Positions 14,940 through 23,947 of a stretch of 50,288 nucleotides of DNA are shown piece after piece (positions within the stretch are counted from its first letter, which is position 1; every line of letters begins with the position of its first letter). The stretch lies in contig DAIDIY010000025.1 of NCBI GenBank assembly GCA_027451625.1, forward strand, positions 1 through 50,288, in the 5' to 3' direction. The notes below the pieces were generated by a model. It ran no database searches, was not told the DNA's origin, and was given only the letters and a program-made list of their open reading frames with translations. This DNA is from Candidatus Daviesbacteria bacterium. GTDB taxonomy: Bacteria > Patescibacteriota > Microgenomatia > Daviesbacterales > UBA10151. The translations under genes were made by a program, and so were the position numbers.

Positions 14940-15013
14940 GGGCCGCTAGCTCAATTGGTAGAGCAACTCCCTCTTAAGGAGTAGGTTTCAGGGTTCGAGA
15001 CCCTGGCGGCTCA
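14940..15013 (+). tRNA. tRNA-Lys (anticodon CUU)
   Basis: A complete cloverleaf can be folded. The acceptor GGGCCGC pairs with GCGGCTC (one G-U). The D-arm is GCTC/GAGC. The anticodon stem ACTCC/GGAGT has loop CTCTTAA, giving anticodon CTT (lysine AAG). The T-arm is CAGGG-TTCGAGA-CCCTG. The discriminator is A and CCA is not encoded (CATC follows). Immediately downstream begins the accessory island with the dispersed repeats, whose end resembles this tRNA's 3' end. Confidence 0.95.
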
Positions 15014-15070
15014 CATCAATCTCAAAATGTCTATAGTATTTCATCTTTGGGTAATTTATGAATCTAAAAT

Positions 15071-15093
15071 TGTTCGACTCCCAGGTGGTGACA
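15071..15093 (+). other. tRNA 3'-end-like fragment, possible attachment-site relic
   Basis: TGTTCGACTCCCAGGTGGTGAC has a T-loop (TTCGACT) and acceptor-like end but no matching stem upstream, so it is not a functional tRNA. It lies 58 nt after tRNA-Lys and could be a diverged copy of a tRNA 3' end left by integration. Confidence 0.3.
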
Positions 15094-15143
15094 ATTTAGC
15101 TAAATCATAAAAGACTCGCAAATATTACTTCAAAAAATATCCC

Positions 15144-15172
15144 TTGACTCATTCGTCTCATTACGATACGAT
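15144..15172 (+). promoter_or_regulatory. Promoter of the Fic gene with overlapping inverted repeat
   Basis: A near-consensus promoter: TTGACT (15144-15149), 17-nt spacer, TACGAT (15167-15172). The start codon at 15181 is only 8 nt after the -10 box, so the mRNA probably has almost no leader. TCGTCTC inside the spacer (15153-15159) is matched by GAGACGA just after the start codon (15186-15192). The encoded protein has an N-terminal winged-helix domain, so self-regulation at this site is plausible. Confidence 0.6.
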
Positions 15173-15180
15173 TTGTCAAT

Positions 15181-16233
15181 ATGAGTGAGACGATTCTTAC
15201 CCCAAGACAAAACTTGATACTAACTCTAATCAATCAATCTCAAGGAATTGGGAGAGCTGAAATTGAAGAAGGAGTGGTCAATAGATATCCATCATCTAAG
15301 CCAACCATAGCGAGGGATCTGGCCTATCTAACGCAAAAAAAATTGATAAAGATATTTGGGAAAGGGAAAAATACCCAGTATAAAGCATTTATTGAAAACC
15401 CGTTACTTCAATACGTTGATGTAAAACAATATTTTACACTTGAAGTGGATCAAAGAAATGGTGACACTGCTTTCGATTTTAGTCTGTTTGATTATATCCA
15501 TGATATTTTTTCGATAGATGAAATAGTCCAACTTTCCAAAATAAACAAAAGTTTTACTAAAGAGACTGAAAAACTTGCCAAAGATATTTTAAAACAAGAA
15601 CTAGAAAGGTTCATTATCGAGCTATCTTGGAAATCATCTAGAATTGAGGGTAATACCTATTCTCTACTTGATACTGAAACGCTGATTAAACAAAGTATTG
15701 AAGCAAAAGGACATACTAAAGAAGAAGCAGCCATGATCTTAAATCACAAAAGTGCATTTGAGACCATCTTAGCTCACAAAAACGAATTTAAAAAAATTAA
15801 TGTCTCTCAAATTACACAATTGCATAATATTTTGGTAAAAGATTTAAATATCTCCACTGGGATAAGAAATCAAGGAGTTGGTATTACTGGTACAACTTAT
15901 CGTCCTCTGGACAATAGTTTCCAAATTAGAGAAGCTTTAGATAAAGAAATTTCAGTGATAAACACCTTGACTCATCCGTTGGAAAAGGCCTTAATTGCGC
16001 TTACTTTTACTTCGTATATTCAACCCTTTGCTGATGGGAACAAAAGAACTGGAAGAATGCTTGCAAACGCCATACTATTGGCTCAAGATTACTATCCTCT
16101 GTCATATCGAAGCGTCGACGAGACAATATTCAAAGAAGCTCTGATCCTTTTTTATGAACAACACAGCCTTGTTCAATTTAAGCAAATACTATTAAGTCAA
16201 TACAGATTTGCGCTTGACACCTACTTTAAATGA
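15181..16233 (+). CDS. Fic-family protein with N-terminal HTH; catalytic His replaced by Gln
   Basis: A 350-residue protein. Residues 1-70 form a winged helix (LTPRQNLILTLINQSQGIGR through LTQKKLIKIFGKG). An inhibitory-helix motif follows at 152-158 (SSRIEGN, S-x3-E-G). The Fic core is YIQPFADGNKRTGRMLANA, where the first residue of the HPFx[DE]GN motif is Gln281 instead of His. That His is the catalytic base for AMP transfer, so the protein is either inactive as an AMPylator or belongs to a subgroup with another activity. I recall a 'QPFxDGNKRT' subgroup but cannot verify its extent. It has its own promoter and is the first unit of the repeat-bounded island. Confidence 0.85.
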   Translation: MSETILTPRQNLILTLINQSQGIGRAEIEEGVVNRYPSSKPTIARDLAYLTQKKLIKIFGKGKNTQYKAFIENPLLQYVDVKQYFTLEVDQRNGDTAFDFSLFDYIHDIFSIDEIVQLSKINKSFTKETEKLAKDILKQELERFIIELSWKSSRIEGNTYSLLDTETLIKQSIEAKGHTKEEAAMILNHKSAFETILAHKNEFKKINVSQITQLHNILVKDLNISTGIRNQGVGITGTTYRPLDNSFQIREALDKEISVINTLTHPLEKALIALTFTSYIQPFADGNKRTGRMLANAILLAQDYYPLSYRSVDETIFKEALILFYEQHSLVQFKQILLSQYRFALDTYFK

Positions 16234-16257
16234 CTTTTCTGGCAATAATAAACAGAT

Positions 16258-16336
16258 CCTAAAGCCTTGAGTTTCTTGTAAACGCTGAGTAAACTGTCAA
16301 AAATCTGGTGCCACCCATTAGACAGGTGGCTCACAA
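16258..16336 (-). repeat. Island repeat copy A
   Basis: One of five ~80-bp copies. On the plus strand it contains GTAAACGCTGAGTAAACTG, then TCAAAAATCTGGTGCCACCC and GACAGGTGGCTCACA. GCCACC and GGTGGC form a 6-bp hairpin with a 9-nt loop. Read on the minus strand it encodes SNGWHQIFDSLLSVYKKLKA and the frame stays open to a stop near 16223. It separates the Fic gene from the BrnT/BrnA unit. The last 11 nt (GGTGGCTCACA) differ from the tRNA-Lys 3' end (GGCGGCTCACA) at one position. Confidence 0.85.
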
Positions 16337-16367
16337 TACTATAAGTATAAGCTTAATAAGAGTACAG

Positions 16368-16634
16368 CTATTGGTTTCTGAATAATCCTTTTGAAATATA
16401 CTCTTTGATGAGAGATTGATAAGGAACGTTAATCTCATTTGCTCTTTCTTTTAAACGGTTGAGTAAATATTCCGGAAGTCTAATGGAAATTGATCTACTT
16501 GTTGGTTTCAGGTTGGGAAAACTAACCCGCTCCAGATCGGAAGGCTCATAATAGTCAGACAAATCAATCTTTGCCCAAAAATCCCTTTCTTCATCCTCAT
16601 TTTTAAATTTTGGTAATTTAAGCTGCTTTTTCAT
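16368..16634 (-). CDS. brnA: BrnA-like CopG/RHH antitoxin
   Basis: An 88-residue antitoxin. The N-terminal half is acidic/aromatic (KFKNEDEERDFWAKIDLSDY). The C-terminal half is a ribbon-helix-helix DNA-binding fold (SRSISIRLPEYLLNRLKERA, about residues 46-65, then NVPYQSLIKEYISKGL). A strong ribosome site (AAAGGAGG) lies before ATG 16634. It overlaps the end of the toxin gene by 17 nt, the usual brnT-brnA order, and the pair is expected to repress its own promoter upstream of brnT. Confidence 0.87.
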   Translation of the reverse strand: MKKQLKLPKFKNEDEERDFWAKIDLSDYYEPSDLERVSFPNLKPTSRSISIRLPEYLLNRLKERANEINVPYQSLIKEYISKGLFRNQ

Positions 16635-16917
16635 AGAGTGGCACCTCCTTTCGATTTACGTCTCTTGCTGAAATAATTCTTATTTTGTTATCTCTTTTAG
16701 TAAATACAATAAGTAGTAATCTTCCTTTTTTAGTTTTACCAATTATCCTAAATCGTTCTTCATTTTCTGCAGAGTGGAGAACATCTGAAAAAGTTACTTT
16801 ATTTTCATCAAAAAATACTTCTTCAGATTCTTGATCCTCAGCTTTATGTTTCTTTTTGTTTTTTCCAATATTTCCCTGATCCCACTCAAATTCCGTCTCT
16901 TTACCAAAAATTTTCAT
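16618..16917 (-). CDS. brnT: BrnT-like toxin (RelE-fold ribonuclease)
   Basis: A 99-residue toxin with the BrnT pattern: FEWDQGNIGKNKKKH at the N-terminus, SEEVFFDENKVTFSD in the middle, ERFRIIGKTKKGRLLLIVFT (about residues 55-74) and the C-terminal RIISARDVNRKEV. In BrnT the conserved basic and acidic residues of these blocks cut mRNA. The insert between the WD.GN and the EE.F blocks is short and lysine-rich. The pair forms one cassette bounded by repeats A and B. Confidence 0.87.
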   Translation of the reverse strand: MKIFGKETEFEWDQGNIGKNKKKHKAEDQESEEVFFDENKVTFSDVLHSAENEERFRIIGKTKKGRLLLIVFTKRDNKIRIISARDVNRKEVPLYEKAA

Positions 16918-16988
16918 TCTAACTTGTATATACTATATAATACATTCACAAACGGAAAGTCAAGCTATAAAAATTAATTTTATTGAAG

Positions 16989-17071
16989 GTAAGTCAAAAG
17001 ATTTTATTTTCTTGTTGACACGAAGTAAACTATCAAAAATTTGATGCCACCCATTGGACAGGTGGTTCACA
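16989..17071 (-). repeat. Island repeat copy B
   Basis: Plus-strand landmarks are GACACGAAGTAAACTATC, AAAAATTTGATGCCACCC and TTGGACAGGTGGTTCACA. The minus strand reads VNHLSNGWHQIFDSLLRVNK and continues KIKSF. It lies between the start of brnT and the start of the small membrane protein gene, that is between divergent genes, unlike copy A. Confidence 0.85.
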
Positions 17072-17134
17072 GGAATCCTATAGTCATTAAAAACTTTATA
17101 GTCATTTTTTCCACTTTCGTGCTATCATTGATTT

Positions 17135-17461
17135 ATGAATTTTAAAACTTTTAGTATTATTTTTTTTCTAGCTGTTTTCATAACTTTTCTGTCTACATTA
17201 ATACCAACTTCATTCTTTGCTTATATTCCAATCAATCCATGTGATCCGAGTGTAAATAATCTCGGGTTACCTCTCCAATTTATCCATCTAACCAAGCCGG
17301 GCACATATAATTGTCCTTTACTTATCCAACAAAGCAATTTTGAATTACTTTCTGGAAGAAGTAGGAATTTTATTATAGATGTCATTTTTTGGTTCATATT
17401 ATTATCATTAGTTGCCATCATTAAAAGAGGTCTTTATAAATATTTTATGAAATCTAGATAA
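17135..17461 (+). CDS. Small membrane protein, 108 aa, unknown
   Basis: Not recognised. Two membrane helices are visible: residues 6-31 (FSIIFFLAVFITFLSTLIPTS) and 79-96 (IIDVIFWFILLSLVAIIK), with an intervening outside loop of about 45 residues that contains two cysteines (NPCDPSVNN and TYNCPLL) and could form a disulfide. The C-terminus is basic. An extended -10 box (TGCTATCAT, 17120-17128) ends 6 nt before the ATG, so the mRNA probably lacks a leader. It is the only gene between repeats B and C. Confidence 0.65.
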   Translation: MNFKTFSIIFFLAVFITFLSTLIPTSFFAYIPINPCDPSVNNLGLPLQFIHLTKPGTYNCPLLIQQSNFELLSGRSRNFIIDVIFWFILLSLVAIIKRGLYKYFMKSR

Positions 17462-17482
17462 TTGATTTTCATAAAATATTTT

Positions 17483-17586
17483 CTACTTTTCCTCTTCAGT
17501 GCGAATCCCTAAATTTTTCAGTTTATCGTATATTCGAAATAAACTCTCAATTAGGGGGTTCCAAACACGGGACAAGTGGCCTCACA
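17483..17586 (-). repeat. Island repeat copy C, with the clearest peptide frame
   Basis: The most diverged copy at the DNA level (GTTCCAAACACGGGACAAGT in place of the usual core), but its minus-strand frame is intact: HLSRVWNPLIESLFRIYDKL, then KNLGIRTEEEK and a stop (17483-17485). The changes from the other copies keep hydrophobic and charged positions. No start codon other than TTG is available, since TGA lies two codons upstream. It lies between the small membrane protein and the VapC gene. Confidence 0.75.
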
Positions 17587-17606
17587 TATATCTTATAGAG
17601 ATATAA

Positions 17607-18017
17607 TTAATAGGGATTTATCACTTTCAAACCTTTAAATTTTTGGAAGTCTTTTATGTTGTCAGTGGCTATTTCATAATCTCCATTTGAGAATGCTGTT
17701 GCTACAAGGTATGCATCAAATATTCTATTTCCAGATAAGTTATGTTCTTCAATTAAGTCAAGAGTAATATGAATTGTAGTTTGATCTGGTGAAACAATAT
17801 TTAATACTTCAGATATTTTCTTGATTGATAATAAAGCTTCTTTAACCTTCATTGGATTTGAAAATTTATTATGGGTTAATACCCTAATAGTTTCCAAAAT
17901 ATTCTGATGAGTTATTGCTATCTTGGAGATATTCTCGTTAAGAAATTTTTTAGAAATTTCGTGCTTAGGAGAGTCAGCATTTATGGCATATATTAGAATA
18001 TTTGAATCAACAACCAT
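17607..18017 (-). CDS. vapC: VapC-like PIN-domain ribonuclease toxin
   Basis: A 136-residue PIN-domain protein. The acidic metal-binding residues are visible: D4 (MVVDSNILIYAI), a glutamate near residue 43 (ILETIRVL), D101 in RIFDAYLVATA and D118 in IATDNIKDF. PIN toxins of the VapC type cut tRNA or rRNA. The gene lies 2 nt after the stop of a putative antitoxin in the same direction, the standard vapBC layout. The cleavage target cannot be read from the sequence. Confidence 0.88.
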   Translation of the reverse strand: MVVDSNILIYAINADSPKHEISKKFLNENISKIAITHQNILETIRVLTHNKFSNPMKVKEALLSIKKISEVLNIVSPDQTTIHITLDLIEEHNLSGNRIFDAYLVATAFSNGDYEIATDNIKDFQKFKGLKVINPY

Positions 18018-18019
18018 TT

Positions 18020-18250
18020 CTAGACTTCAGGATCTGGGTAAAAATCATCTCTAGTCAGGTTATCAAGAGCTTCACCAAGGTGATGTGTCTTAAAAATTAT
18101 CCTTTTGGCTTTTTTTTTGGCCTCTTCATTCAAATAGTCTTCCAAGGCTTTATTAAAAATTTCTTGCAATGTTAAATTATCCTGAATAGCTTTCTGTTCA
18201 GCATTTCTCTTTAGTTTCTCTTCAATTCTAAGGGTAGTTCTGATTAACAT
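18020..18250 (-). CDS. vapB: VapB-like RHH antitoxin
   Basis: A 76-residue antitoxin starting at ATG 18250 (MLIRTTLRIEEKLKRNAEQK); an upstream ATG at 18310 would add 20 residues that run through the promoter region and is less likely. The N-terminus is a ribbon-helix-helix motif (TTLRIEEKL, then LTLQEIFNKALEDYL). The C-terminal tail (KTHHLGEALDNLTRDDFYPD) would bind and block the toxin. The direct repeat TGACA-N6-TGACA upstream (18261-18276) is a candidate operator. Confidence 0.82.
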   Translation of the reverse strand: MLIRTTLRIEEKLKRNAEQKAIQDNLTLQEIFNKALEDYLNEEAKKKAKRIIFKTHHLGEALDNLTRDDFYPDPEV

Positions 18251-18260
18251 ATCTTTATGA

Positions 18261-18285
18261 TGACATATATATGACAAAATGTCAA
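18261..18285 (-). promoter_or_regulatory. Candidate vapBC promoter/operator
   Basis: On the minus strand TTGACA (18280-18285) is a perfect -35 box. On the plus strand the region has TGACATATATATGACA (direct repeat of TGACA) and the dyad TGACA-AAA-TGTCA. It lies 11 nt before the vapB ATG. No convincing -10 box with normal spacing was found, so promoter function is uncertain. Confidence 0.4.
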
Positions 18286-18398
18286 TGAGTACATAGCGAT
18301 TCGAATCCACTTTGGTTCACACTTGAAGATCAGTTTGATGTAGAAATCTAAATTTACTACTAATAAGTCCCAGTATTTACTTAAGCCTTACTTAATGA

Positions 18399-20408
18399 CT
18401 ATTTTAAAATGCTTGACTTGCGGAGACTAAAGATAAACTCATCGTCGAGATGCCACGAGCTACCAGGACGAGCCCAACGTTCACCCAGCTCGAGCCCGCC
18501 CCCATCCCGGTTCAGATAGAAAACGCTCGGAAAGTCCTCGGAACCATCAATTGGATCCATGCCGATGTAATACTCGTCTCCTTCAGGTTGGTTTAGGTCT
18601 TTTAGTCTTCTGTGGACTCCAAGCTCTGCAGGGCAAAGTTCAAGTCCAAGTTCCCCAGCCCGTTTAAAGATCTGGTCAGTCGTTGGTGTCCCCCTGTCAA
18701 ATCCTAAATCTTGCAATGTTAATCTCACTGTTTGGATATCATCTTGTGTTGGAAGGGTAGTAAATTTAGGGTTATCCATCATGGATATTGCCCAATCGTT
18801 TACCCACAATGTCCCCTCATCTTCCAACAGTTTCAATTCATGCCTTAACTCCTCCTTAGTTTTTCCACCTATCTCATCAGCCTGCCTTCTAATCTTCCCT
18901 TCAGGGAATGAAGTATAGATCTGTTCAATATTGTATCTTGTAATTAAGTCAAAGATACCTGGCTCAAGCTTTCCCACATATGCTTTGGTGTCTGGCCTTA
19001 TTTCCTTTATGCTTCTGGCAATCTGCCTGTTCTCACAACCAAAAACTATCGGCATATCTTCCTCTACGTTTCTTTTTGACAGGATTTCTGCAATCCTAGG
19101 ATCTATTTCATAACCAAACCCTTCAATTGGTGAGTCTAACTCATAGAGAAACCGCAGATCATCTGTGTTTATTTCCTGGTTCCTTAGTGTTCCTTGCTCT
19201 ATCTGGGTAAGCCGTTTCATATCCGCGGTGCGTTTTTTGAACGCTTGTCCTTCTGATCCAAATTCTTCGAGTTTCTTTTCCAAAACAGGTGTGATATACG
19301 GATCAAGGTTCTGGTTGGGAGCAATGCCGCGAACTTCAGCTATTCGTGATTCCTCCATACGGATTGCTAAACGGGGAATTGGTTTACCGTTTTGGTCAAA
19401 AGAATAGTAAACTAAAAAATCTCCTCCCTCAAGCTGTGTTCGTGCCGTATCAATATCTGCGGTGCACCATTCAAGCGGATGCCCTTCTAAAGATGCAACA
19501 AGAGGTTGAGGATTTGAACCTTGACTATACTTTATCCATTCTCCTCTGGTGTCCTCAAGACCTTGGGTGGAGTATTCTGGGATTTCGGATAAAAACTGAG
19601 CATACAACTTTGAAAAGTCTTCAGTGCTTAATAGTTTTTGGTACTCCTCATCTGAAAGAGTAGTGCTTAAATTTTCTGTTGTTTGTTCTTCCATAGGTTT
19701 CCCTTTTTCCTCAAGCCGGGCATTTATTGCGCCAATTGTATTAGCTAGCGCCCGTGGGTTGAGGACTGGAAAAGAAGCAACGGTATCTTTCCTTCTGGTT
19801 GCAAACCGAGCTCTGCCGTCTTCGGTTTTCTCAAGCTTTCCCATTCTGACAATTGAGCGAAACGCCCAATACTTTGCCCACATTGAGTATTGAGCATCAT
19901 TTGAGGATAAGTAATCAACCCATTTGTCCAAGCTTTGCTCCTGGTTGGCAATAACGGTGCGTACCGCTTGTTCCTTGATCTCTTCAGGAAAGATAAATGA
20001 GCGGTTTACGTTGCTTGTGCCATCTGGGTTTTGTATGGTGTTTTCTTCGATAAAAACACCGCTACTTACTAAATCTTGCTTACGGCCTTCACTAATTGCT
20101 ATCTCTCCTTGCAAATTCCAATATGATTGGGGAATATTCTCAGGTGTTATCACATATTCTTTGTGGTAGTAGTTCTTAATCCGTTCTATAACTCTTGGAT
20201 CATCTTTATGACCCATATGCGTTTTTTCAACAACGCCAAGCCATGCTGCAATTTTGTCTGCCGGTTTTTGAGAAATCAGTTCACTTGTTTTACGGTTTGA
20301 ATTTATAGCCTCAATCCTTCTCCTCATCTGCTCATGCTCTACAGACTGGATTGTGTGAAGTTTTGGATCCTGTTTATGTAAAAATTGTTCTCCGGTATCT
20401 TCTGCCAT
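18399..20408 (-). CDS. Large hypothetical protein, 669 aa, with a PcfJ-like segment
   Basis: Not assigned to a known function. Soluble, no signal peptide. The middle (about residues 315-375) contains SLEGHPLEWCTADIDTARTQ followed by GGDFLVYYSFDQNGKPIPRL and IAEVRGI. This C..A...L..GDF..YY....G...PRLAIRM...I.EVRG pattern resembles the C-terminal region of plasmid PcfJ-like proteins and similar large CPR proteins; the likeness is from memory and weak. The C-terminal third has IDGSEDFPSVFYLNRDGG. Base composition is richer in G+C than in the neighbours, which fits acquisition. It ends about 90 nt from vapB and starts 42 nt from repeat D. Confidence 0.6.
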   Translation of the reverse strand: MAEDTGEQFLHKQDPKLHTIQSVEHEQMRRRIEAINSNRKTSELISQKPADKIAAWLGVVEKTHMGHKDDPRVIERIKNYYHKEYVITPENIPQSYWNLQGEIAISEGRKQDLVSSGVFIEENTIQNPDGTSNVNRSFIFPEEIKEQAVRTVIANQEQSLDKWVDYLSSNDAQYSMWAKYWAFRSIVRMGKLEKTEDGRARFATRRKDTVASFPVLNPRALANTIGAINARLEEKGKPMEEQTTENLSTTLSDEEYQKLLSTEDFSKLYAQFLSEIPEYSTQGLEDTRGEWIKYSQGSNPQPLVASLEGHPLEWCTADIDTARTQLEGGDFLVYYSFDQNGKPIPRLAIRMEESRIAEVRGIAPNQNLDPYITPVLEKKLEEFGSEGQAFKKRTADMKRLTQIEQGTLRNQEINTDDLRFLYELDSPIEGFGYEIDPRIAEILSKRNVEEDMPIVFGCENRQIARSIKEIRPDTKAYVGKLEPGIFDLITRYNIEQIYTSFPEGKIRRQADEIGGKTKEELRHELKLLEDEGTLWVNDWAISMMDNPKFTTLPTQDDIQTVRLTLQDLGFDRGTPTTDQIFKRAGELGLELCPAELGVHRRLKDLNQPEGDEYYIGMDPIDGSEDFPSVFYLNRDGGGLELGERWARPGSSWHLDDEFIFSLRKSSILK

Positions 20409-20450
20409 ATGATTTAGTCAGTAAAGCTGTAGATAGTATATCTCGTATCT

Positions 20451-20526
20451 TGTAAGGCGTCTATCTTGTTATACACTCTTATAAGACTTTCAAAAATCTA
20501 TTCCACCCATTGGACAAGTGGTTCAC
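20451..20526 (-). repeat. Island repeat copy D
   Basis: Plus strand: CTTATAAGACTTTCAAAAAT, then CTATTCCACCCATTGGACAA and GTGGTTCAC. The minus strand reads HLSNGWN, then, after a one-base deletion, IFESLIRVYNKIDAL, so this copy is frameshifted. It lies between the divergent 669-residue and 466-residue genes. Confidence 0.8.
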
Positions 20527-20599
20527 TTTGAAACAAAATCAGTTATTTTTATTGTCTAAAACATCACTCGTACATCAAGTTCCTCTCATAAAATAAACA

Positions 20600-20655
20600 T
20601 TGTTTTTCTTATAAGATTATGTATAATCAGCAGTAGTGATAGGTTGTTACAACCT
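20600..20655 (+). promoter_or_regulatory. Promoter with palindrome before the helical-repeat gene
   Basis: TTGTTT (20600-20605), 16-nt spacer, TATAAT (20622-20627). AGGTTGTTACAACCT (20641-20655) is a perfect palindrome with 7-bp arms, placed between the predicted transcription start and ATG 20663. It could bind a repressor or form a 6-bp RNA hairpin. Confidence 0.5.
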
Positions 20656-20662
20656 AATAATT

Positions 20663-22063
20663 ATGCCTTTAGAAAGAAGAATAAATACACCGAAAGGAGC
20701 ACTCTCCCAACAAGTACCTGTTGAAGACAGGCTTATTTTAAGTTATAAAGCCGATCAAGATTTTTTGGCAACAGCAGCTTTACTAGACGCTACTCAAGCG
20801 GGTGTACACAGAGATATTGCCACATTAAAGGTTTCAAAAGAATTAACTAGAACTGGCAGACAACCACTATTCTCACCCGATCACTTCTTTAATGTTGCAA
20901 ATCAACTAGAAAGTTGGAATAGGAGCGATATATACGAGGAGGTATCTTTATTACAAGCTGAGATGGGTGACGTTTCTTCTGCATTGTCAACGGCAGAAAG
21001 GACTTATGGTTTCTCCTGGTTTTATAATGACTTGGCAAGGGTATTAGCAAGAAAAGGATCAAATCCACAACCTGTTTTTGATAGAATTCATAATAAATTA
21101 AGAATTGACGCTGGTAGCACAAATGATGTTCGAGAGGCTGGACAGACTTTAGAAGTACAAAGAGACCTAGGATTAGCTGCACCAAAACATTTAATTGATA
21201 GGTTTCGAGTAATGGATAGAAAAAGAGATGCTTATTCAAATAGTTATAACCTTGAACTTGCTGAATCATATGCAAAGGCAGGTTTTCCAGATGATGCTTT
21301 AGATATATGGAGATTAGCAAGAGATACTGGTTATCACTATACCCATAAGGCCTCAGTGCTACCTTACATAGCATTGGCTCAAGCAAGAAATGAAGTTAAC
21401 CCTTCAGAAACTGTAGCAACTGCAATTGAATATGCAGATAGGCTTAAAACTAAGGTTGATAAAAAGCAAATACCAAGTTTTTTGGAAGCAGAAATATACT
21501 CTAATCTTAGCAGAGTTTACACTGCATATGGTTTAGACCCACGTCCTTTGATAAGTACAGCTTTACAAAGAGCATTAGAAATCTCAGATTTTGATCAAGT
21601 GGTGCTAGATAATATACGAGCTGATGCTTACACTCAAATCGCAAGAGCACAGATAGAAAGTGGTATTGATGCAAGACCAACTTTAGTATTGGCGTTACAA
21701 TGGGCTGATCAGAATGTAAAGCCAGGAGAGAATTGTAATAGCGGCTATTGTGGATCAATCCAATTATTAAATTGGGAAAATATTTATCGCGCTCAACTTG
21801 TCGGAGAATATTTTGATGATGCTAGGAAAACTCTAGACAGAATGGACAGATATCCAGACCAAGATATTAAATCAATGAAAGCAGAGTTACTAGCAGAATT
21901 AGCTAGAGAGCAAGGGAAAAAAGGACTATCATCAGAAGAAATTATAGCTTTAACGCTTATCGATATAAGAGCAATTCTTATAGGAAAAAATGAAGTTGCC
22001 AAACAAGCAGCTTTACATTTTGGATTAGATAAAAGGTTATCCCCCTTTTCCTCTAGTTTGTAG
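20663..22063 (+). CDS. Helical-repeat (TPR-like) protein, 466 aa
   Basis: A soluble all-alpha protein made of repeated helix pairs, such as YEEVSLLQAEMGDVSSALST, YNLELAESYAKAGFPDDALD and AYTQIARAQIESGIDARPTL. The A..Y...G....A spacing is TPR-like. Such solenoids bind protein partners; no enzyme motif is seen. I start it at ATG 20663; a longer frame from GTG 20636 would run through the palindrome. Function unknown. It is the cassette between repeats D and E. Confidence 0.65.
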   Translation: MPLERRINTPKGALSQQVPVEDRLILSYKADQDFLATAALLDATQAGVHRDIATLKVSKELTRTGRQPLFSPDHFFNVANQLESWNRSDIYEEVSLLQAEMGDVSSALSTAERTYGFSWFYNDLARVLARKGSNPQPVFDRIHNKLRIDAGSTNDVREAGQTLEVQRDLGLAAPKHLIDRFRVMDRKRDAYSNSYNLELAESYAKAGFPDDALDIWRLARDTGYHYTHKASVLPYIALAQARNEVNPSETVATAIEYADRLKTKVDKKQIPSFLEAEIYSNLSRVYTAYGLDPRPLISTALQRALEISDFDQVVLDNIRADAYTQIARAQIESGIDARPTLVLALQWADQNVKPGENCNSGYCGSIQLLNWENIYRAQLVGEYFDDARKTLDRMDRYPDQDIKSMKAELLAELAREQGKKGLSSEEIIALTLIDIRAILIGKNEVAKQAALHFGLDKRLSPFSSSL

Positions 22064-22088
22064 TGACAAAATTTGACATGGTAAATAA

Positions 22089-22168
22089 ATCCAAAAGTCT
22101 TTAGTTTATGGTAAACATGAAGTAAACTTTCAAAAATTTAGTGCCACCCAATGGACAGGTTGCTCACC
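22089..22168 (-). repeat. Island repeat copy E
   Basis: Plus strand: GTTTATGGTAAACATGAAGT, then AAACTTTCAAAAATTTAGTG, CCACCCAATGGACAGGTT and GCTCACC. GTTTA and TAAAC form a small dyad. The minus strand reads SNLSIGWH, a stop, then IFESLLHVYHKLKTFGF, so the coding pattern is kept but broken by TAA. It is the last clear copy in the array. Confidence 0.85.
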
Positions 22169-22275
22169 AACGTGGACATCACCATTTAAAAATACACGAA
22201 TGGATTAATACGTCGCTCCAATAGTTCTGATTAACTTTCCCGAAATGTCCTAATTAGCTTAGCTTCAAAATTCTT

Positions 22276-22302
22276 TACACCCTAACGGGATTTGAACCGA
22301 CA
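22276..22302 (-). other. tRNA 3'-end-like fragment near the island's right end
   Basis: The minus strand reads GTCGGTTCAAATCCCGTTAG followed by GGTGTA, which looks like a T-loop and acceptor 3' half of a tRNA, but no 5' half exists upstream. It may mark the other end of the island. Confidence 0.3.
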
Positions 22303-22340
22303 ATTACTTTCTATCATAAAATTTATAAAAGGGTTTGTAG

Positions 22341-23377: not shown

Positions 23378-23947
23378 ATGACAGGAAGGACTCATGATCT
23401 TGCAGCTTTTACTTTACTAAATCTTGTCTATATATACTCCCAACCTTCTCATCTCGAATTTTCTACAGTATTGGTATCTGTTGGCGCAAACCTTATTGGA
23501 GGATTAACCCCTGATCTAGATCAACCGACATCTGAAATCTGGCGGAAAATCCCTGCAGGATCTTTTTTGGGTAGAGTTATTTCTCCAATCTTAGGAGGAC
23601 ATAGGTTCATATCCCACTCACTTCTCGGCTTAGCTATTTTTGGGATTCTAGGGAAATATCTCTTAGATCTTATGCACCCAGTTCTTTTAGTAAATTACAC
23701 TATAGTCTGGTGGTCATTTATGATCGGAGTTTTTTCTCATTTAGTAATGGATAGTCTAACTAAAGAAGGAGTTCCTTGGTTATTTCCATTACCATGGCGA
23801 ATTGGTTTTCCTCCATTTAAATTTTTAAGGATAAGAACTGGAGGTATAATTGAAACATTTATAGTCTTCCCTCTTTTATTATTAGCAAATATTTACCTCT
23901 TTTATTACTTTTACAATATATATCTTTCTTTTTTAAGATCTTTTTAA
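23378..23947 (+). CDS. DUF457/YdjM-like membrane-bound metal-dependent hydrolase
   Basis: A 189-residue membrane protein with about four helices. The family signature is visible: MTGRTHDLAAFTLLNL at the start (H6, D7), GANLIGGLTPDLDQPTS (about residues 37-53), HRFISHSLLGLAIFG (about 74-88) and GVFSHLVMDSLTKEGVPWLF (about 118-137). The conserved His and Asp residues are thought to bind a metal; the natural substrate of the family is unknown, probably a membrane lipid. The -10 box is 8 nt before the ATG. Confidence 0.85.
   Translation: MTGRTHDLAAFTLLNLVYIYSQPSHLEFSTVLVSVGANLIGGLTPDLDQPTSEIWRKIPAGSFLGRVISPILGGHRFISHSLLGLAIFGILGKYLLDLMHPVLLVNYTIVWWSFMIGVFSHLVMDSLTKEGVPWLFPLPWRIGFPPFKFLRIRTGGIIETFIVFPLLLLANIYLFYYFYNIYLSFLRSF

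Follow-up and report, generated by a model that had tools for sequence, protein, structure and literature searches.

RESULTS

A repeat array at a tRNA-Lys gene

The 50,288-nucleotide stretch of DNA analyzed here (the window) is contig DAIDIY010000025.1 (C25) of Candidatus Daviesbacteria bacterium assembly GCA_027451625.1 (G000), a 1.15-Mb genome in 51 contigs. Beyond its tRNA-Lys(CTT) gene lie five gene units, each with one copy (A to E) of a repeat. The open reading frame (ORF) list and Pfam placed Fic, BrnTA, PIN/antitoxin, and further genes of no assigned family in these units, but neither an integrase nor transfer genes. The repeats are very probably attR-type attachment (att) sites from insertions catalyzed by a large serine integrase that has its att core within the 3' end of its own gene, the array being a stack of five integrase-less units at tRNA-Lys(CTT). 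The features are listed below; a slash marks the edge of a site.

14940 to 15014, plus strand: complete tRNA-Lys(CTT) gene (ARAGORN), 3' end ..CTGGCGGCTCAC/A, the insertion anchor (attB/attL side)
15015 to 16334: unit 1, 1,320 bp, with a Fic-family gene at 15181-16233 (Pfam Fic, 2.4e-13) and site A
16249 to 16334, minus strand: site A, an integrase 3'-end remnant, minus strand VSHLSNGWHQIFDSLLSVYKKLKALG; outer edge at 16334; in frame with the genome's own integrase
16335 to 17070: unit 2, 736 bp, with a CopG/BrnA antitoxin gene at 16368-16634 (minus), a BrnT toxin gene at 16618-16917 (minus), and site B
16985 to 17070, minus strand: site B; splice to the own integrase in frame
17071 to 17585: unit 3, 515 bp, with a gene for a 108-aa predicted membrane protein at 17135-17461 (plus) and site C
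17486 to 17585, minus strand: site C, diverged (HLSRVWNPLIESLFRIYDKLKNLG), with a one-base shift at the edge (GTGAGGCC) that puts the splice with the own integrase out of frame
17586 to 20526: unit 4, 2,941 bp, with a PIN toxin gene at 17607-18017 (minus), a 96-aa putative antitoxin gene at 18020-18310 (minus), a 669-aa gene at 18399-20408 (minus), and site D
20441 to 20526, minus strand: site D; frame broken by a one-base deletion
20527 to 22167: unit 5, 1,641 bp, with a gene for a 475-aa helical-repeat protein at 20636-22063 (plus) and site E
22082 to 22167, minus strand: site E, with an in-frame TAA stop; 22167 is the outermost unit border

Sequence alignment and nhmmer both found the five copies in a single shared orientation, and one copy lies at each border in the order Fic, brnA-brnT, membrane protein, vapBC with the 669-aa gene, 475-aa helical gene, and the next gene, a layout on which ORFs and Pfam agree. 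Both observations had been made in an earlier sequence-only reading of this DNA and are upheld. Copies A, B, and E were mutually 74-80% alike across 86 bp. With an nhmmer model built from A, B, C, and E, D being left out, the E-values were 8e-17 for site C and 1.5e-7 for site D, compared to 1e-22 to 4e-16 for A, B, and E; sites C and D appear more diverged than the other three, yet are clearly related to them. When copy A was the sole blastn query, it recovered B (E-value, 1e-14) and two copies on contig C18 (9e-19 and 8e-16). Read on the minus strand, the repeats give related peptides of the form V.HLSNGWHQIF(D/E)SLL.VYKKLK.LG. The genome as a whole holds about 11 copies (five on C25, three on C18, two on C4, and one on C8), located at unit borders and at several tRNA genes, and a common intergenic repeat, which would have undone the sequence-only reading, was rejected on these grounds.

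Site edges and tRNA targets

The outer edge of each window repeat (..GGYTCAC/ on the plus strand) copies the 3' end of tRNA-Lys(CTT). The tRNA ends in ..GGCGGCTCAC and the five sites in ..GGTGGCTCAC, GGTGGTTCAC, GTGGCCTCAC, GTGGTTCAC, and GGTTGCTCAC, and the antisense 3' end of the tRNA, TGTGAGCC, agrees with the site edges. The tRNA gene, which had been described as adjoining the array, is more than a neighbor, its 3' end being the insertion anchor. The comparison was extended to 374 genomes of the class. The edge types found match the 3' ends of tRNA-Lys (GTGAGCC), tRNA-Gln (GCTGxxG), tRNA-Val (GTGGxC), and tRNA-Asp (GCGGGTCC), and the conserved site edge G[TC][GT]RGC. fits tRNA 3' ends. Over all loci, a tRNA gene at <=3 kb on the element side had its 3' end toward the element at 23 sites and the other orientation at 3, with the three nearest window sites counted separately. 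The targets across the system are tRNA-Lys, Gln, Glu, Val, Arg, Asp, and Ser, and ssrA is not one of them. In the own genome, C4 carries a two-site array at tRNA-Gln(TTG) and C8 a single site with a facing tRNA-Arg; the integrase-less units of other genomes sit at tRNA-Lys, Gln, Val, Glu, or Asp.

Head-to-tail units, toxin-antitoxin (TA) cargo, a single site per unit, and a shared site orientation would also suit an array of the integron type, with attC-like cassettes and a tyrosine integrase, IntI. However, the edges copy tRNA 3' ends and contain no RYYYAAC/GTTRRRY cores, the site is coding and its linked recombinase is a serine recombinase (see below), and the own genome has just two tyrosine recombinases (PF00589), both on contigs without detected sites. 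We therefore give an integron practically no chance. The attC-type site was rejected because the edges do not fit, in line with the sequence-only reading, and the two tyrosine recombinases were dropped because their contigs are unrelated to the arrays. The earlier proposal of a cassette-like array built by repeated site-specific insertion is supported.

The repeat is the detached end of an integrase gene

The remaining ~75 bp of the repeat, read on the minus strand, correspond to the last codons of an integrase gene. Large relatives of the units span 12-40 kb and carry an intact integrase where they meet the tRNA (attL), with the repeat at the opposite end (attR). For sites linked to a PLD nuclease gene, the facing tRNA lay 12-40 kb off in the six elements with one found. 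Where the integrase was located, it was opposite the site, and in five elements it lay at a tRNA. That of G019 ends at a GCTGGCGG target that is not a tRNA, some 13 kb from the site; in G291, the integrase ends at the nearer tRNA-Gln(CTG). The enzyme is a large serine recombinase with Resolvase and Recombinase Pfam domains that reads antisense into the tRNA. The 3' end could be read for 25 integrase ORFs, of which 21 overlapped a tRNA antisense and none had kept the native tail.

A core located within the integrase gene predicts that the integrase up to the core, joined to the far-end site, forms one open frame. This was the case in all seven elements spliced in this way, which include a second integrase family at the tRNA-Lys(CTT) of G011, compared to a chance expectation of about (1/3)^7. 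The restored proteins are 603-618 aa long (527 aa for G011), the restored tail has about 30-45 codons, and the PLD gene follows directly where its module is present. Stops occurred in just 2 of 47 tails at integrase-less sites. The proportions of synonymous and nonsynonymous differences in the site region (pS, 0.81; pN, 0.32-0.39) show that it evolves like coding DNA, as expected of an integrase 3' end. The identity of the sites, their edges, the frame continuity, the tRNA anchoring, and the discreteness of the units are demonstrated here at the level of sequence, and from the identity of site and integrase tail the window array would be a stack of integrase-less units of 0.5-2.9 kb.

Codon-like conservation, together with the frequent position of the repeat directly upstream of a PLD operon, could also point to a translated leader peptide or a regulatory RNA ahead of defense genes. 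This explanation is very improbable: many adjoining cargo genes are convergent with the site, the homology stops sharply at the tRNA-like edge, the frame runs on into the integrase, and Rfam matches in the window were limited to the tRNA and two chance matches far under the gathering scores, with the repeats unmatched. A leader peptide or an independent short gene was ruled out by the convergent neighbors and the splice test.

The array is followed by a YdjM gene (23378-23947). G011 has a relative of this gene on the far side of a 29.3-kb element at tRNA-Lys(CTT), with order and orientation preserved. Given the shared order and orientation, this looks like the same chromosomal site with different occupants, five small units in the window genome versus a large element in G011, in a comparison based on one genome. 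In the synteny comparison, relatives of the upstream ABC permease had no adjoining tRNA.

The integrase of the own genome

The sequence-only reading had found no integrase in the window, which is correct for the window; however, a family-profile search of the own genome located one copy of a cognate large serine recombinase on another contig (G000:C50:3475-5208). Integrases linked to such arrays, which that reading had proposed to seek, thus exist both in related genomes and on C50, with the repeat as their detached 3' end. The C50 integrase ends antisense in tRNA-Lys(TTT) and, when cut at GTGAGCC, keeps its reading frame on entering sites A, B, C18a, and C18b. Contig C18 carries site C18a, PLD, a small protein, XRE, an M23 peptidase, a TraG/VirB4-like ATPase, and a TrbL/VirB6-like protein. 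C50 and C18 probably represent opposite ends of a single integrated element at tRNA-Lys(TTT), beyond which lie two integrase-less units. Of possible conjugation machinery, Pfam identified TraG/VirB4-like ATPases, TrbL/VirB6, and M23 peptidase in the large relatives (e.g., C18/C50) but no relaxase.

The PF00239 match on contig C2 belongs to another serine recombinase subfamily, and that Pfam search missed the C50 integrase. The C2 protein, a 534-aa serine recombinase (G000:C2:44363 to the contig end; L143), has an end that runs into antisense tRNA-like sequence and probably marks another tRNA-targeting element family.

Distribution, cargo, and recurring units

A peptide profile of the site found it in 53 of the 374 genomes, mostly one to five times each, and in every contig stretch with several sites all were co-oriented. 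Integrase and site co-occurred: both were present in 28 genomes, the site only in 25, and the integrase only in 20 (Fisher P, 3e-15). The site neighbors include Fic, BrnTA, PIN, RelE-type, and AbiE-type genes, a PRTase-type defense gene, and a C5 methylase and, very often, a module of PLD nuclease, small protein, and opposed XRE gene. The similarity between PLD units of unrelated genomes starts sharply at the site edge and ends ~1 kb on. These discrete ~1-kb blocks led us to consider the PLD nuclease as the recombinase, an idea that was dropped once the blocks turned out to form the attR side of larger elements. Viral contigs yielded no relative of the PLD protein.

Several observations concern this cargo. 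The attR module (L005:9637-10522 and ~30 more loci) consists of a single-HKD PLD nuclease, an opposed XRE regulator, and a ~70-aa protein that no Pfam family matches. This module would come immediately after the integrase gene in the circular form, with regulation, excision factor, and immunity as candidate roles. Inserted between the PLD gene and the small gene of one module (L107:6829-8477) are a 60-aa gene and a gene for an unrelated 489-aa serine recombinase. Further tail families with tRNA-like edges (e.g., ..YFEPLLxxLTxFxxFMEAYQAxEE) precede the same PLD gene at L148, L150, L154, L156, L157, L159, L164, and L169; the frame was checked for G011 alone (L148/L198/L199). A 40-kb element at tRNA-Gln (G198:C21; L085, L191, L192) carries, by sequence, many heavy-metal-transport-like (HMA/P-type ATPase-like) and membrane/cytochrome-type genes. 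In the window, Pfam searches gave no match for the 108-aa protein of unit 3, and neither the 669-aa (18399-20408) nor the 475-aa (20636-22063) protein had a significant Pfam or PADLOC match; the latter two, inside TA-rich units, are candidate defense or toxin systems.

A given unit or element can be found again in an unrelated context, still sharply bounded, which is not the picture of repeats scattered independently of gene borders that would have spoken against the sequence-only reading. These recurrences also bear on where the small units came from. They could be decayed elements at tRNA-Lys, similar to integrative and conjugative elements, that lost their integrase and transfer genes and left attR and some cargo behind, by the passive accretion described for cis-mobilizable elements (CIMEs). 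Decay shares the att and integrase-tail explanation given above and differs solely in the origin of the small units. It would fit the broken frames of sites C, D, and E; C18 and C50 resemble an element of this kind followed by two integrase-less units; and a CIME review gives decay as the usual account (PMC5704250). Conversely, the units are short, with a single gene or operon reaching right to the borders, and most tails at integrase-less sites are intact. In addition, one RelE-type unit has identical ends (-5 to 707) in two genera and in differing contexts. In G284, a TA-only unit, consisting of a site and helix-turn-helix/PIN genes, was inserted as such at a tRNA-Gln-3'-end-like GGGCAGC/ within a second, degraded nth gene, an intact nth being present elsewhere. 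On balance, decay is a substantial possibility, at somewhat less than an even chance.

DISCUSSION

The arrangement described above suggests how the repeats could arise from integration. In the excised circle, the att core would lie inside the integrase 3' end and copy the tRNA 3' end, with the last ~30-45 codons running past it, directly upstream of the PLD-nuclease/small-protein/XRE module. On recombining with the 3' end of a tRNA, such a circle would leave the tRNA intact; the integrase would stay on the tRNA side and gain a tail read from antisense tRNA, and the native tail, which is the repeat, would end up at the far end of the element. The C50 integrase at tRNA-Lys(TTT) could then shift integrase-less units in trans. 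We infer from sequence comparison the recombination reaction, the loss of the native tail on integration, the mobilization in trans, and the order in which the units arrived.

Several points weigh against this interpretation. The att core is short, at about 5-10 bp. Neither a strictly empty site, among the genomes compared, nor an excised or circular form (attP) was seen. Integrases of this family went undetected, at the threshold used, in 25 of the 53 site-bearing genomes, and C18 and C50 are linked indirectly, since both contigs are incomplete and not joined. The frame from the C50 integrase is shifted at site C, broken by a deletion in site D, and ended by a stop in site E, so some units may be immobile relics, and part of the window array, with three of five sites damaged, may be fixed in place.

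A further step would be to regard the whole as a tRNA-anchored, integron-like system in which small TA and defense units equipped with an att site alone are mobilized in trans. Since integration would split the integrase gene at the att core it contains, the exchange of the native tail for the antisense-tRNA tail would act in such a cassette system as a built-in integration/excision switch. We put this forward tentatively, as a possibility that is appreciable but by no means favored.

These elements offer a testable mechanism by which candidate phyla radiation (CPR) bacteria, with their small genomes, could collect TA and defense genes at tRNA genes. The integrase tail can serve as a search key that flags insertions and pairs each with its target tRNA, and tRNA-antisense peptides (GFEP..) at the C termini of such recombinases may be explained in this way. 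The system looks like the equivalent, among bacterial serine recombinases, of the archaeal split integrases; it may include a directionality switch, and its large number of tRNA-targeting serine integrases could interest genome engineers.

In the open-access literature, to which our search was directed and which leaves subscription papers aside, we found nothing specific on gene cassettes or integrative elements of CPR bacteria. The closest precedent is the ssrA islands of Dehalococcoides. In the parts of that report used here, the serine integrase gene dsiB shares its 3' end with attL and continues into the complementary strand of the RNA gene, multiple islands occur in tandem, the integration module is absent in 15 of 31, and the overlapping end was judged unlikely to encode a functional part of DsiB (PMC3146451). 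The overlap with attL and the target RNA gene in antisense, the tandem arrangement, and the many integrase-less islands are all as here. The target of DsiB is ssrA, whereas here it is several tRNA genes; the units here go down to 0.5-3 kb with TA and defense genes, unlike the Dehalococcoides islands; and a conserved tail at attR, which those parts of the report do not describe for DsiB (PMC3146451), was found here, coding-conserved and in frame. CIMEs, according to the review sections consulted, lack an integrase, are att-bounded, and accumulate in stacks at tRNA 3' ends, while the same genome carries a related complete element at another place (PMC5704250). The window units share these traits, being att-bounded, with a tRNA 3' end as one border, and without integrase or transfer genes. 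The tRNA-targeting elements in those sections use tyrosine integrases, however, whereas here there are a serine integrase and cassette-sized units (PMC5704250). The sequence-only reading was right in that the array is not built on attC and is not an integron, but the close precedents for accretion of integrase-less units at tRNA genes mean that it is not a wholly different kind of system.

The archaeal SSV-type "suicidal" integrases, which are tyrosine enzymes described as exclusively archaeal, have the att site inside the gene and are split on chromosomal integration (PMC8371274). The likeness here is that att lies inside the integrase gene and that the gene is split on integration, as the frame continuity and the loss of the tail indicate; unlike the SSV-type enzymes, this is a serine integrase that loses only its C-terminal ~30-45 residues and keeps its catalytic part intact. 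Chromosomal integrons hold head-to-tail cargo with one co-oriented recombination site per unit, and TA genes are common in them. The window array shares the head-to-tail, one-site-per-unit, single-orientation layout but has a serine rather than a tyrosine integrase, a tRNA 3' end in place of attI, and a coding site in place of an attC hairpin. What seems to be novel is a serine integrase with the att core inside its own 3' end that leaves a conserved tail at attR, the use of that tail to mark sites at many types of tRNA, and the cassette-like TA and defense units of very small size. Taken together, the system resembles CIME accretion and the Dehalococcoides ssrA islands more closely than it resembles integrons.

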